Below the pieces are notes generated by a model. That model had not been told where the DNA came from and searched no databases. It worked only from the letters and a program-made list of their open reading frames with translations. Of a DNA stretch of 36,336 nt, positions 27,465-32,404 are shown piece after piece; positions within the stretch are counted from its first letter, which is position 1, and the number at the start of each line of letters is the position of its first letter. Location: NCBI RefSeq assembly GCF_001038455.1, contig NZ_LDUY01000015.1:1-36336 (forward strand). The letters run 5' to 3'. The stretch comes from Fructobacillus sp. EFB-N1. GTDB taxonomy: Bacteria; Bacillota; Bacilli; Lactobacillales; Lactobacillaceae. Both the position numbers and the translations under genes were made by a program.

Positions 27465-28208
27465 ATGATCAAAGTCCGCGATATGACGGTCGCCTATGAT
27501 AGCGCCCCCGTCTTCACGAACCTGTCAATCCAATTTGAACCTGGAAAAATCACCGGAATTATTGGCCCCAACGGTGCCGGTAAGTCGACGATGATTAAAG
27601 GGCTTTTAGGGTTGACCAGCAAGCAGTCCGGAACGGCCACTTTGGCAGACCAACCAATTGCAAAGCAACTCAAGCTCATCGCTTACGTTGAACAACGGGC
27701 AGCACTTGATTTGACGTTTCCAATTAACGTTTTGGATACGGTTTTAACTGGGACCTATCCGAACCTCGGTTTGTTTAAAGTGCCTGGAAAAAAAGAGGAA
27801 GAGGCCGCTTTAGCAGCCTTGACCGATGTTAAGTTAGCTGAATTTAATCACCGACAGATTAGTGAATTATCCGGTGGCCAGCTCCAGCGCGTTTTTGTCG
27901 CCCGAGCAATTGTTCAGGATGCCGATGTCATTATTTTAGATGAACCCTTCGTTGGTATCGATATGAAATCAGAAGCTGACATCATGGCAATTTTGAAAAA
28001 ATGGCGGGCTGCCGGCAAAACAATCATTGTTGTAAACCATGATTTGAATAAGGTCACAACATACTTTGATGACCTCGTCATTATTAACCACGGTGTTGTG
28101 GCTCAAGGTCAGACACAGGACGTGTTCACAAAAAAGAATATTACTACTGCCTTTAGTGGCGACCTATCAAATATTCTTTTTGACGAAGGGGAGGCCACAC
28201 ATGAATAG
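27465..28208 (+). CDS. Manganese ABC transporter, ATP-binding protein
   Basis: 247 residues. Walker A GPNGAGKST near 36-44, signature LSGGQLQR, Walker B VIILDEP, and the H-loop HD in VVNHDLN. The segment YVEQRAALDLTFPINVLDTV and the LFKVPGKK loop are typical of the SitB/PsaB/MntB metal-importer ATPases. Powers uptake through the permease encoded next; the stop overlaps the permease start by 8 nt. Manganese rather than zinc is inferred from the binding protein's ligands. Gene naming differs between species, so no symbol is given. Confidence 0.9.
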   Translation: MIKVRDMTVAYDSAPVFTNLSIQFEPGKITGIIGPNGAGKSTMIKGLLGLTSKQSGTATLADQPIAKQLKLIAYVEQRAALDLTFPINVLDTVLTGTYPNLGLFKVPGKKEEEAALAALTDVKLAEFNHRQISELSGGQLQRVFVARAIVQDADVIILDEPFVGIDMKSEADIMAILKKWRAAGKTIIVVNHDLNKVTTYFDDLVIINHGVVAQGQTQDVFTKKNITTAFSGDLSNILFDEGEATHE

Positions 28209-29049
28209 TATTGCGCTTTTTATTGATGGTTTAACGAAGTATAACTTCTTGCAGACGGCACTGATTACTGCCATCCTAGTCGGAATCATGTCCGGGATTG
28301 TTGGTTCCTTTATTATTTTGCGCGGCATGTCTTTAATGGGTGATGCTATTTCGCATGCGGTTTTACCTGGGGTGGCAGTTGCCTACATGCTTGGCATTAA
28401 CCTTTTGCTGGGGGCTTCAATTTTTGGTTTGTTGGCCGCTATGTTGATTGGTTTTGTGACAATGAAGTCGCAGTTAAAAAATGATACCGCGATTGGAATT
28501 GTTTTCTCTTCCTTTTTCGCGCTTGGTTTTATCCTGATTTCAATGGCAGAATCAGCCACTAATTTGCACCATATCCTATTTGGAAATGTTTTGGCTGTTT
28601 CTGACCAAGACCTGATTACTACGGCGATTGTGTTAGTGGTAGTTGTCCTGTTCGTCGTGCTTTTCTACAAAGAATTGTTGATTACGTCCTTTGATAATAC
28701 CTTTGCCCGAGCTTACGGTTTGAAAACGCAGGTCTTACACTACGGCTTGATGATGATTTTAACGTTAGTAACCGTGACCGCACTGCAAACGGTTGGAATT
28801 ATTTTGATTGTTGCAATGTTGATTACACCAGCCGCAACAGCTTACCTATTAACAAATAAAATGTCATCCATGATTATGATTGCAGCAACCTTTTCGGTTT
28901 TTGCATCCGTCATTGGATTGTACTTTAGCTTTACCTTTAACTGGGCTTCCGGTCCGGCGATTGTCTTGACTGCCGCAGTGTTCTTCTTATTGGCCTTTCT
29001 CTTTTCGCCAAAGCAGGGCATTTTCATTAAAAAACGAGCAGCGAACTAA
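28201..29049 (+). CDS. Manganese ABC transporter, permease
   Basis: 282 residues from the ATG at 28201 (AGGGGAGG, 6-nt gap); the longer reading from 28066 overlaps the ATPase gene. ABC-3 family metal permease with about eight or nine helices: GSFIILRGMSLMGDAISHAVLPGVAVAY is the hallmark block near residues 35-62, with later helices such as TVGIILIVAMLITPAATAYL. Forms the membrane channel of the importer. Confidence 0.92.
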   Translation: MNSIALFIDGLTKYNFLQTALITAILVGIMSGIVGSFIILRGMSLMGDAISHAVLPGVAVAYMLGINLLLGASIFGLLAAMLIGFVTMKSQLKNDTAIGIVFSSFFALGFILISMAESATNLHHILFGNVLAVSDQDLITTAIVLVVVVLFVVLFYKELLITSFDNTFARAYGLKTQVLHYGLMMILTLVTVTALQTVGIILIVAMLITPAATAYLLTNKMSSMIMIAATFSVFASVIGLYFSFTFNWASGPAIVLTAAVFFLLAFLFSPKQGIFIKKRAAN

Positions 29050-29114
29050 AATTTGTAGCGAAAGAAGATGATAAAAGGCGTATTAAACGCACTTGGAATT
29101 GAGGAAAATTGAAT

Positions 29115-30056
29115 ATGATTAAACGATTAACGATTATTGGGCTGGCAGCACTAGCATTGTTAGCAGGTGTCTTTTACTTTGTCAATGAAAGTCAGACGGG
29201 TAAAACTAGTCGAAGCGGTAAGTTACAGGTTGTTGCGACAAACTCAATTATTGGGAACATGGTTGAAGAGGTCGCTGGTAACAAGGTCAAGTTACACACG
29301 ATTGTTCCTCGTGGAACCGACCCCCATGAGTACGAACCACGACCACAAGATGTGAAGGCAACACAAGAAGCCGATGTTTTGTTCCATAATGGTTTGAACC
29401 TGGAAACTGGTGGTTCTGGTTGGTTTAAGAAAATGTACCAAAATGCAGGTAAGAAGGAAAACGAACAAGTCTTTGCTGTTTCGGATGGCGTTGCTGCTAA
29501 GCATTTGACGGATGCCGGTAAAGAAAACGAAATGGATCCCCATGCTTGGTTAGATATCCAAAACGGTATTAAGTATGTGCAAAACATTGAAAAGGTTTTG
29601 ATTGAAAAGGATCCAAAGAATAAGAGTACTTACCAAAAGAATGCTGCTGCATACATTGAAAAGCTAACTAAATTAGATGAAAGTGCCAAAACTAAGTTTA
29701 ACAATATTCCAGCAGATAAGAAGCTTTTGGTGACTTCCGAAGGCGCCTTTAAGTACTTCTCGGCAGCCTATGGCATCACACCAGCCTTTATTTGGGAAAT
29801 TAACACCGAGTCACAAGGGACACCAGAACAGATGAAGACTGTTTTGGAAAAGATTCGCGCAACCAAGGTACCCGTTCTCTTTGTTGAAAGTTCTGTATCA
29901 CCAAAGTCAATGGACAAGGTTTCTAAGGAAACTGGTTTGCCAATTTACGCTAAGATTTATACTGATTCATTAGCCAAGGAAGGCAAGCCCGGCGATACTT
30001 ACTATGGCATGATGAAGTGGAACTTGGACAAAATTTCAGAAGGTTTGTCCAAGTAA
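29115..30056 (+). CDS. Manganese-binding protein of the ABC transporter, TM-anchored
   Basis: 313 residues from the ATG at 29115 (TTGAGGA RBS, 9-nt gap; TTG 29109 is too close). Cluster A-I solute-binding protein. Metal ligands are H71 (DPHEYEP), H143 (MDPHAWLD), E209 (TSEGAFKYF) and D284 (YTDSLAKEG), the His-His-Glu-Asp set of manganese proteins like PsaA. The His-rich zinc loop is missing, and [12 protein letters not shown] near the end is also PsaA-like. The N-terminus has a hydrophobic helix with LLAGV at 15-19, where a lipoprotein would have a lipobox ending in Cys. No cysteine is present, so it should be anchored by an uncleaved helix or secreted. It follows the permease after 65 bp. 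Confidence 0.9.
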
Positions 30057-30136
30057 AATTAGTGACTTAACTGTCTTTGATGGCCAATTGTCGAGCAGAT
30101 TGTTAGGAATTCTAAAAGTAAAATGATTTTAATCGG

Positions 30137-30164
30137 TTGACAAATTAAAATTAAATGCTATTAT
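30137..30164 (+). promoter_or_regulatory. Promoter of the leader peptide / M20 operon
   Basis: TTGACA (30137-30142), a 16-bp spacer and TATTAT (30159-30164) with a TGC extension (30156-30158). One of the best promoters in the window. The transcript would begin near 30171. Confidence 0.85.
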
Positions 30165-30194
30165 TAAAGAAATATTAGAAAAGGACAAAAAAGA

Positions 30195-30236
30195 ATGATG
30201 ATGCAAATGTGCTGTTCTCGAATGTTGAAACAATAA
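30195..30236 (+). CDS. Met/Cys-rich leader peptide
   Basis: A 13-codon frame MMMQMCCSRMLKQ preceded by AAAAGGAC (30179-30186) and ended by TAA at 30234. Five of 13 codons are Met and two adjacent ones are Cys. It sits between a strong promoter and an intrinsic terminator ahead of an amidohydrolase / MetQ-like operon. The arrangement is that of a transcription-attenuation leader peptide, in which ribosome stalling at Cys or Met codons would alter downstream folding. The start could be any of three consecutive ATGs. Confidence 0.6.
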   Translation: MMMQMCCSRMLKQ

Positions 30237-30400
30237 ATGGGTACTTAATCTCGTGTTTGGTTCTCATTTATTGTCGAGCGTTATGTTCCATATTTGAGAA
30301 CCATCATTTGATTCGCACAACATTGTTATCGTAACAATTTTAGTTCTTTATGTCGGGGACTAGTGTCTATCAGGAATGGTGGATACTAGTCCTTTTTTCT
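30231..30400 (+). promoter_or_regulatory. Candidate ribosome-mediated attenuator
   Basis: CAATAAATG (30231-30239), which includes the leader stop codon, pairs perfectly with CATTTATTG (30265-30273). GGTTCTC (30259-30265) pairs with GAGAACC (30296-30302). The two helices cross and cannot both form freely. Next come ATTGTTA-TCG-TAACAAT (30322-30338) and a terminator GGACTAGTGTC (30357-30367) with GATACTAGTCC (30382-30392) plus a T run (30393-30398), ending 22 bp before the first structural gene. Confidence 0.6.
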
Positions 30401-30422
30401 TTGTTTTGAGAAGGGAGCATTA

Positions 30423-31589
30423 ATGAAATTAACTACTGCAACTGAAACAATTACTGATTTGAGTGCCATTCGGCACTACTTTCATCAGCATCCAGAACTT
30501 TCAAGCCAAGAATATCAGACAACGGCATTAATTAAGGCCTACTTAGCTGATTTAGGCTATATAATTATTACCCCAGAAGCCTTACAGACTGGCGTTATGG
30601 CTGAGATCGGCCCAGAAGACGCCCAATACACAGTTGCTTTGCGGGCAGATATTGATGCGTTGCCAATTCAAGAACAAACGAACTTAGACTTTGCTTCTGA
30701 AAATGCCGGTATCATGCACGCCTGTGGTCATGATTTTCACCTTACCTCTTTGCTGGGTGCCGCTGAAAAGATTAAAGAAAATGTTGACAAATTGACTGTT
30801 AAGGTGCGACTGATTTTTCAGCCCGCAGAAGAAACGCATGTTGGCGCAGAGCAAGTAATTGCAAGTGGTGGTTTAGAAGGTGTGGACGTGATCGTCGGTT
30901 ACCATAATCACCCGAATTTACCCGTTGGCCAAATCAGTGTTGGGAATGGTGGCCGCAATGCGGCTGTTGATCAATTCGCTGTCAAGTTAACGGGCGTTGG
31001 TGGTCATGCTGCGAAGCCACATGAAAACATTGATCCCATTTTAGCACTCGCTAATACCGTTACGGCTTTACAAAGTATCGTTAGCCGTTCACTTGATCCT
31101 TACCGGCAAAGTGTTTTATCGGTTACCCATATTGAAGGGGGTCAAACATGGAACGTTATTCCTGATTGTACCTGGTTTGAAGGAACAATTCGTACTTTTG
31201 GAGACCATGACCGTGAACAAGCCAAAGAGAAATTCTACCAAATTATTAATGGTCAAGCGGCAACGTATGGCGTTTCAACGGAAATTGAGTGGATTCCTGG
31301 TCCGCCAGTGCTCGAAAATGATCCAATCCTGACGGACATTCTGGCCGAAAATATTCAGTACCATGCTAATTTGGTGAACTTTCCGCCATCAGCTGGTGGT
31401 GAAGACTTTGCTTTTTATACGAGTAAAGTTCCCAGTGTGTTTGCAGAAATTGGCAGTGGTGGTAACTCGGGCTTGCACCATTCTGATTTAGTCCTAGATG
31501 ATGCAGGATTAGAGACCGCCATCATTTGGTACTATCAGTCTGTTTTACGGTTACAAGATTACTTTGCTGAAAAGGGAGAAAAAGCATGA
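30423..31589 (+). CDS. M20-family amidohydrolase (N-acyl amino acid deacylase type)
   Basis: 388 residues. Metallopeptidase fold with ligands in ACGHD (C101, H103), PAEE (E136-E137), YHNH (H161 or H163) and GLHHSD near the end; the dimerization lid contains GVGGHAAKPHENIDP. This is the hippurate hydrolase / N-acetyl-amino acid deacetylase subfamily (relatives: YxeP, DapL, AmaA). The 4-nt overlap with a MetQ/NlpA-type binding protein and the Met/Cys leader suggest it releases a sulfur amino acid from an N-acylated form (inference). RBS GAAGGGAG. Confidence 0.87.
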   Translation: MKLTTATETITDLSAIRHYFHQHPELSSQEYQTTALIKAYLADLGYIIITPEALQTGVMAEIGPEDAQYTVALRADIDALPIQEQTNLDFASENAGIMHACGHDFHLTSLLGAAEKIKENVDKLTVKVRLIFQPAEETHVGAEQVIASGGLEGVDVIVGYHNHPNLPVGQISVGNGGRNAAVDQFAVKLTGVGGHAAKPHENIDPILALANTVTALQSIVSRSLDPYRQSVLSVTHIEGGQTWNVIPDCTWFEGTIRTFGDHDREQAKEKFYQIINGQAATYGVSTEIEWIPGPPVLENDPILTDILAENIQYHANLVNFPPSAGGEDFAFYTSKVPSVFAEIGSGGNSGLHHSDLVLDDAGLETAIIWYYQSVLRLQDYFAEKGEKA

Positions 31590-32404
31590 AGAAAAGATAT
31601 TGGTTGACCGGTCTGATTCTAATTTTGATTGTAATTGCTGGAATTTGGTCCTTTTATCCGCACCAGTCAAATAGTAAAAAAGGAACGATTACATTAGCAA
31701 GTTCACCCGGTCCTTACAGTGAACTCTTTTTAAAGGGCGTGAAACCTATTTTGGAAAAAGAGGGTTACACGGTTGAAAACAAGTCATTTACTAACCTATT
31801 AAATGCCGACATTGCCCTTAATGAAGGACAGGTTGATTTAAATGTTGATCAGCACACCGCTTACTTGAACAACTTCAATAGGGAAAAGAATGGTAAGTTG
31901 ACGGCATTAACAAAGATTCCAACGGTTCCAATGGGGCTGTATCCTGCACAAAAGCACTCTTTGAAGTCTGTCAGTGATGGTGATACGATTGCGGTTCCAA
32001 ATGATCCATCCAATACGGCACGGGCTTATCAATTACTGGAAAAGGCAGGTTGGATTAAACTGCGTTCTGGGGTGAACCCAATTACCGCAACTAAAAATGA
32101 TATTGTAGAAAATAACTACAATTTAAACTTTAAGGAAATTGATTCGTCAACGATTCCACGGGTAACCAATGACTTTAGTTATGTCATTCTTCCAGGTTCA
32201 GTTGCTTACAATGCCAAGGTCTCTTCAAAGAAGATGCTGGTAGCAGAAAAAATTCAAAACGGCTACTATTTGGTAGCCACAACGACAAAAAAGAATGCAG
32301 ATACTAAGTGGGCAAAGGCTGTCAAAAAAGCCTATGAATCAAAGGAATTTGCCAATTATGTGAAGAAGCATAATGATGACAACTATTGGGTCATTCCACA
32401 ATAA
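31586..32404 (+). CDS. MetQ/NlpA-family substrate-binding protein, no lipobox cysteine
   Basis: 272 residues; starts at ATGA overlapping the amidohydrolase stop. NlpA/MetQ hallmarks: LASSPGPYSELF, NADIALNEGQVDLNVDQHTAYLN, ALTKIPTVPMGLYP, VPNDPSNTARAYQLLE. Known members bind methionine or related amino acids for a MetNI-type ABC importer; no ATPase or permease is encoded here, so the partner lies elsewhere or the protein is an orphan. The N-terminal helix contains VIAGI at 16-20, with Ile where the lipobox Cys would be. It is likely membrane-anchored by this helix. Confidence 0.87.
   Translation: MKKRYWLTGLILILIVIAGIWSFYPHQSNSKKGTITLASSPGPYSELFLKGVKPILEKEGYTVENKSFTNLLNADIALNEGQVDLNVDQHTAYLNNFNREKNGKLTALTKIPTVPMGLYPAQKHSLKSVSDGDTIAVPNDPSNTARAYQLLEKAGWIKLRSGVNPITATKNDIVENNYNLNFKEIDSSTIPRVTNDFSYVILPGSVAYNAKVSSKKMLVAEKIQNGYYLVATTTKKNADTKWAKAVKKAYESKEFANYVKKHNDDNYWVIPQ

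Follow-up and report, generated by a model that had tools for sequence, protein, structure and literature searches.

Attenuators built on polycysteine leaderless sORFs are known in mycobacteria (Canestrari 2020, cited in PMC9094748), and an earlier study, which saw no conserved terminator hairpins for Mycobacterium, covers Actinobacteria as a further group where leaders with Cys codons are known or have been proposed (PMC1262725). In the Rhodobacterales, the leader uORFC-8-2 precedes the cysteinyl-tRNA synthetase gene cysS and combines two tandem Cys codons with stems and a terminal U run, for which attenuation has been proposed (PMC8632094), and before hisS paralogs of bacilli a regular amino-acid leader peptide reading histidine is described as replacing the T-box, within the Firmicutes (PMC2965389). 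In lactobacilli, Met/Cys T-boxes bind tRNA directly, sense its charging and act by termination, with no ORF involved (PMC6004538, PMC2494555). For L. paracasei FAM18149, the cysK2-ctl1-cysE2 operon is reported to be expressed ~8-fold more strongly (log2 2.9-3.2) in the absence of cysteine than in that of methionine, and its cysK2 5'-UTR is described as having high read coverage (a pile-up), no T-box, and the palindrome AAGGGCGCGAAA-N16-TTTCGCGCCCTT inside a predicted terminator (PMC6004538). A near-identical hairpin upstream of the same operon had been presented as a possible regulatory motif (Liu 2012, as cited in PMC6004538), and control of the operon was called "yet to be discovered" (PMC6004538).

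The window analyzed here, a stretch of 36,336 nucleotides from Fructobacillus sp. EFB-N1 (contig NZ_LDUY01000015.1), contains a leader that resembles the mycobacterial attenuators in its run of Cys codons within a short ORF, there placed ahead of cysteine-responsive operons, but that has a Shine-Dalgarno (SD) sequence, an intrinsic terminator and alternative helices where the mycobacterial systems, from another phylum and ahead of other genes, are leaderless by title. It shares its tandem Cys codons, stems and terminal U run with uORFC-8-2, which differs in its gene, in its alphaproteobacterial hosts and in the usual position of its Cys codons (14-15), and it is a regular amino-acid leader peptide like that of the hisS paralogs, which reads another amino acid before other genes. 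The T-boxes of lactobacilli regulate the same or neighboring genes, but the window has no match to them. Its features are as follows.

30137..30164, + strand: extended -10 promoter (TTGACA, 16 nt, TATTAT, with TG before the -10), 11/12 in the promoter scan
30180..30185, + strand: Shine-Dalgarno-like AAAGGA of the leader, read from the sequence
30195..30236, + strand: leader ORF MMMQMCCSRMLKQ, 13 codons, ATG at 30195, stop at 30234-30236
30214..30225, + strand: 5' arm of helix P0, within the leader from the second Cys codon onward, pairing with 30290-30301 (folding, helix ranking, arm swaps)
30230..30239, + strand: 5' arm of helix P1, over the stop codon, pairing with 30265-30274 (helix ranking, covariation)
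30258..30266, + strand: 5' arm of helix P2, TGGTTCTCA, which excludes P1 (helix ranking, covariation)
30265..30274, + strand: 3' arm of P1 (helix ranking, covariation)
30295..30303, + strand: 3' arm of P2, TGAGAACCA (helix ranking, covariation)
30301..30309, + strand: 5' arm of P3, the putative antiterminator, overlapping the 3' arms of P0 and P2 (shuffle p 0.16)
30355..30398, + strand: intrinsic terminator, hairpin 30355-30394 and T run 30393-30398 (terminator scan)
30374..30382, + strand: 3' arm of P3, in the terminator loop and 3' arm (helix ranking, arm swaps, state folding)
30423..31589, + strand: M20 amidohydrolase gene; best solved relative of the product YxeP (1ysj, E 3.8e-91)
31586..32404, + strand: gene for a MetQ/NlpA-family binding lipoprotein (family matches)

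An earlier note on this DNA had proposed a promoter, a ribosome-binding site, a 13-codon frame, mutually exclusive helices and a terminator, all of which we located in the window. The SD-like AAAGGA lies 9 bases before the leader ATG, the promoter -10 ends 30 bases before it, and the two Cys codons, TGC TGT, occupy 30210-30215 (codons 6-7); a short ORF with its own SD and with codons for the putative signal is a hallmark of ribosome-mediated (trp/his-type) attenuators, and the leader has both. The terminator and its T run do stand before the first gene, at a spacing of 24 bases from the M20 ATG at 30423 and not the 22 given previously. By count alone, promoter-like sites (2 seen vs 3.5 expected) and terminators (1 seen vs 1.4 expected, the hairpin in question having 18 pairs) were not above chance in the scanned region. 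An Rfam covariance scan of the window returned no family at gathering score, T-box, SAM/S-box and other riboswitches included, and the three hits at E up to 10 within 30100-30440 were unrelated eukaryotic or sRNA families, with no T-box among them; a T-box or riboswitch in the window was rejected on this absence of a covariance model match.

The transcript 30171-30400 folds at -73.6 kcal/mol, compared with -46.1 (sd 4.4) for its shuffles (z -6.3; 0/200 shuffles as stable), and when the perfect helices (at least 6 pairs) of the 204-nt leader are ranked, the first five places go to the terminator, P0, P2, P1 and P3. Both helices named earlier exist, CAATAAATG/CATTTATTG being P1, over the stop codon, and GGTTCTC/GAGAACC being P2; P0 and P3 (CCATCATTT/GAATGGTGG) were absent from that list. 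Covariation was assessed in an alignment of 13 leaders (A3, MAFFT) by comparison with 500 shuffles, which related sequences can beat, and with slid registers. In P1, 84.6% of cells were paired (shuffles 76.3; slid registers 24-55%) and 15 cells had changed on both sides; in P2, 88.5% were paired (shuffles 75.4; slid registers 31-55%) and 11 cells carried double changes, and none of the 500 shuffles reached any of these four values. The number of pairs with a double change was not above shuffles (58 and 220 of 500 for P1 and P2), and neither was the number of further pair types (377 and 245 of 500). When arms were swapped between species, each leader's own pairing was best or nearly so in most rows and clades separated, the arms having been pre-chosen for their own pairing; the exceptions were G001 (P1), G073 (P0 and P1), and G128 and G002 (P3). 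The alignment check suggested in the earlier note gave relatives that keep the Cys codons and have compensatory changes in both P1 and P2, which supports its reading of a leader peptide with an attenuator: to judge from these sequences, P1 and P2 are mutually exclusive helices of the attenuator type.

A blastn search for the leader covered 397 genomes of Lactobacillaceae, drawn evenly from a larger group, and found clear copies in 3 of them (4 places). In the closest relatives, G001 and G012, the leader is 92-93% identical over about 206 bases and encodes MMMKMCCSRMSKQ; a second copy of leader and M20 in G001 has decayed and lost its leader start codons. Although the leader is intact in G001 and G012 (L064, L065, L033), both proteins, M20 and MetQ, give split matches there. 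A weak match in another genus (L029) proved to contain a MetQ homolog preceded by the leader MKMCCCFMSKK, alternative helices and a terminator; the hits L024-L028 and L030-L032 were rejected as homologs, being matches of 19-41 bases.

The MetQ protein has matches in 54/397 genomes at 1e-40, and the locus set comprised 39 places, the window and the 38 further places that were closer. By eye and script, a Cys-run leader with an SD precedes MetQ or M20-MetQ operons at 16/39 loci, a leader with one Cys only (MRMCSS...) and the P1 helix at two (G050, G082), and a T-box at 15, while six have neither element directly ahead of metQ or M20. Thirteen of the 15 T-box loci were scanned with Rfam (16 sources), six reaching the gathering score and the rest being called by eye, and the specifier, likewise read by eye, is AUG in all 15. 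These metQ orthologs belong to other genera (L072, L074-L077, L081, L086, L088, L092-L094, L096-L099). Two other T-box hits lie on the other strand (L070) or ahead of the gene before metQ (L071). Outside the family, 11 distant MetQ loci, mostly of Clostridium and other non-Lactobacillaceae, were inspected over the 2,400 nt upstream, and at 0/11 was there a leader combining a Cys run with an SD.

A covariance model of the leader RNA (R1, 13 training rows) matched 17 places in 16/397 genomes at E 1.1e-7 or better, 13 of these being training genomes. The remaining hits begin at E 0.011 and were rejected; three that we inspected (L127, L128, L130) have no Cys leader. In the three new genomes (G229, G159, G136), a leader reading MKMCCCIMSK or MKMCCCLISV is followed by a terminator and then by the gene of a TcyP-like symporter, that of G229 being 44% identical to E. 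coli TcyP, a cystine/sulfocysteine symporter, and having just sub-cutoff matches to GltP, DctA and SstT in NCBIfam. The G229 protein matches 35/397 genomes, and 30 loci of the 35 places were retrieved: a Cys-run leader with an SD was identified at 17 of them by script and at 18 by eye, G060 being among the latter. A T-box-like core was seen by eye at 4 tcyP loci, one of which was confirmed and reads as AUG (L165). Over the MetQ and tcyP upstreams together, Cys-run leaders with an SD occur in 33/69 vs 1.9 expected in shuffles, and CCC runs in 23 vs 0.06 expected; the 33 are not independent events because many of the loci are mutually related. An Rfam scan of 15 loci with such leaders returned a tRNA only.

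In genus g26, MetQ is present in 9/10 species, always behind a Cys leader (eight with an R1 match, all in the training set, and G103 with a CCCC leader), and in the tenth species, G193, it is TcyP that lies behind a CCC leader. Three genomes, G116, G090 and G060, combine a Cys leader ahead of tcyP with a T-box, read as Met, ahead of metQ. On contig C8 of G377 (34615 to about 39438; L095, L156, L182), tcyP and M20-metQ are near neighbors with opposite orientations, and the Cys leaders that precede them differ in sequence. Group II intron domains lie near tcyP in G131 (L148:943-1265).

Because the cysteine response of the FAM18149 operon was in print (PMC6004538), we also searched cysE loci. Matches to cysE were found in 88/378 genomes (90 places). 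Among 60 retrieved loci, a Cys-run leader with an SD precedes the cysE-containing operon in 50 by eye; by script, 49 have a Cys leader no more than 400 nt from the next ORF vs 0.22 expected in shuffled upstreams, a count in which one locus is the wrong ORF (L217) and one true leader is missed (L227). A run of five T lies between leader and next ORF in 41 of these 49. At L213, L216, L217, L229 and L231, the leader precedes cysE itself and not cysK. Of the ten cysE loci that lack such a leader, an Rfam scan covered nine (all but L240) and gave no match.

A plasmid search gave 32 records, all from Lacticaseibacillus and including pFAM18149.25, and no close relative of the window's leader-M20-metQ DNA. 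On pFAM18149.25, the leader (M)MSQSMFNAINCCCRTTRFWRCSAC (…INCCCRTTRFWRCSAC) precedes cysK2-ctl1-cysE2, the order being leader, published motif (L273:3688-3727) with a T run, cysteine synthase, PLP enzyme and serine acetyltransferase. Read in this arrangement, the published palindrome is the predicted terminator of a Cys leader, so that the Liu 2012 motif (as cited in PMC6004538) would be part of an attenuator. An antiterminator can form here between the leader segment that directly follows the CCC codons and the 5' arm of the terminator itself. In transcripts of up to L=169, this pairing had a probability of 0.98-0.99 whichever of the three Cys codons the ribosome was stalled at, and of 0 with a ribosome at the stop codon; it was still 0.95-0.98 when stalled at L=176 and 0 in all states at L=187. 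Counting against the model, untranslated RNA behaved like stalled RNA up to L=169, its pairing being gone by L=176.

For the window leader and its relatives, the evidence on the antiterminator P3 is mixed. It recurs with changed sequence across leaders, its arms having been chosen for their own pairing, but is weak in shuffles: the linker-shuffle test was not significant for the window (p 0.16), and over 16 leaders gave p 0.004 for G103, 0.04-0.08 for five g26 leaders (0.04-0.05 for G211 and G227) and 0.11-0.90 for the other nine. We then folded nine leaders in different ribosome states, with ribosome-covered bases removed and with transcripts cut off at the P3 arm, when the 3' arm of the terminator does not yet exist. 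In the window, P3 had a probability of 0.98 for a stall at either Cys codon, compared with 0.12 for a ribosome at the stop codon and 0.41 without translation. G128 agrees (0.01/0.93/0.00 untranslated/stalled/stop), as does G002 (0.00/0.56/0.00, rising to 0.95 if the stall is placed four bases later) and, with the stall four bases later, G173 (0.94 vs 0.01), and the antiterminator is weak in G005b (0.30 at best). In G001, G242 and G211 the stalled state was not separated from that at the stop, contrary to what the mechanism requires, and in G073 none of the tested alternatives formed. In the full-length transcript the terminator wins in every state in 9/9 leaders modeled, and the switch would therefore have to act kinetically.

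The best solved relative of the M20 protein, YxeP, is reported in B. subtilis to deacetylate N-acetylcysteine to cysteine (PMC9706529). Elsewhere in the window genome, contig C2 carries a separate metQ-metQ-M20-metN-metI stretch (names read from ORFs), and contig C34 has three strong PF01053 matches together with metA-like and metE-like genes, before which stand two T-boxes (102.2 bits, above gathering, and 76.1, below) whose specifiers were both read by eye as AUG. The genome has no TcyP-like gene at E 1e-60, and its own cysE locus has no Cys-run leader. In the tcyP and cysK-ctl-cysE contexts, the genes downstream of such leaders serve the amino acid that would be sensed, and to judge from the YxeP activity the M20/MetQ operon would do so too.

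From the sequence, its conservation, the P1/P2 covariation and the gene contexts, all directly observed, we infer that the window leader is very probably a cysteine-sensing, ribosome-mediated transcription attenuator, in which translation, stalling, the switch and its direction, and the substrates would be as follows. A ribosome would begin translating the leader behind RNA polymerase and, when Cys-tRNA(Cys) is short, would stall at codons 6-7, covering the leader arm of P0. P1 could then form and P2 could not, leaving 30301-30309 free to pair with the terminator loop (P3), and polymerase would read into M20-metQ. With ample cysteine, the ribosome would reach the stop codon and cover the 5' arm of P1, allowing P2 to form and to capture 30301-30309, and the terminator would form; in the absence of translation, P0 would capture the same segment, so that the operon would also be off. 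The M20 enzyme would free cysteine from N-acyl-cysteine-type compounds, and the MetQ-like protein would import a sulfur compound. The original reading is thereby widened, with support from the surveys, in that such leaders recur across Lactobacillaceae and that P0 and the antiterminator would complete the switch.

That reading had left the signal as cysteine or methionine. Cysteine is the likely one because AUG T-boxes precede the metA-like and metE-like genes of the same genome, because 15 of 76 distinct leaders (from 84 loci) lack an internal Met codon while all 76 have Cys runs, and because leaders of this type stand before the gene of a cystine importer and before operons for cysteine synthesis; the cysteine response of the FAM18149 operon favors it further. 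The presence of Cys codons is partly built into this count, since the leaders were found by their Cys runs. The leader might instead sense methionine, or both sulfur amino acids, through its Met codons, the Cys codons being secondary: internal Met codons occur in 14 of the 15 distinct leaders of MetQ type (mean 2.3), and because metQ orthologs in other genera and the tcyP of L165 have T-boxes read as Met, MetQ may carry methionine and control by the two amino acids is not cleanly separate. Given the Met-less leaders and the cysteine-gene contexts, we consider methionine sensing unlikely, and retain cysteine as the likely signal.

Runs of Met and Cys resemble metal-binding sequences, and a Cys-rich nascent peptide could sense a thiophilic metal or an oxidant instead of charged tRNA; the operon directly upstream (27465-30056) is a manganese/zinc-type ABC importer, with genes for an ATPase, a permease and an EfaA-like lipoprotein. 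Cysteine acquisition genes follow such leaders in separate contexts, however, and the FAM18149 operon is reported to respond to cysteine (PMC6004538), which makes this reading very improbable. An RNA-only riboswitch or T-box relative with a fortuitous ORF would explain the strong structure and the ability of P0 to pair without translation, but is hard to reconcile with the Rfam results for the window and the 15 leader loci or with the recurrence of SD and Cys codons in leaders of differing sequence, and we regard it as very unlikely. About equally improbable is a constitutive terminator with chance helices that is now decaying, as the split M20 and MetQ genes of G001 and G012 and the second G001 copy without start codons might suggest: the compensatory changes, and the 92-93% identity of the leader in both relatives, speak against it.

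At some of these loci, a further short ORF follows the terminator of the attenuator and precedes metQ or tcyP. It encodes a conserved microprotein, 18-25 residues long, whose core reads GK(Y/H/F)RGGxxC and whose Cys codon TGT is terminal or nearly so (L078:3426 on, the L117:1380 region, L125, L126, L079, L080, L082, L083, L089, L090). Its pooled pN/pS is 0.26 (pairs of 9 sequences, one identical pair excluded). No family was found in Pfam or NCBIfam, a second form giving just PmrR at E 0.083, far below the cut-off, and the microprotein is absent between terminator and M20 in the window.

The mechanistic kind is known, but the class and its regulon are apparently new: among the matches listed, a literature search gave nothing on Cys leaders in Lactobacillaceae, subscription papers falling mostly outside its scope. 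The leaders offer a specific mechanism by which cysteine would switch cysK2-ctl1-cysE2 in L. paracasei, a question left open in the report on that operon (PMC6004538), and they add regular amino-acid leader peptides to a family whose described sensors of sulfur amino acids are T-boxes. An importer family that has Met T-boxes in some genera and Cys leaders in others amounts to a natural experiment in regulator replacement. The leaders also provide a way to predict cysteine genes, such as M20/MetQ for cysteine salvage and the TcyP-like symporters, and are relevant to sulfur flavor in cheese. On balance, we think it probable that much of the cysteine economy of Lactobacillaceae (synthesis, cystine import and N-acyl-cysteine salvage) is governed by dispersed polycysteine attenuators that share a logic and not a fold, that probably arose or were rewired several times, and that swap with Met T-boxes, and in some genera the microprotein may add a further cysteine-dependent layer.
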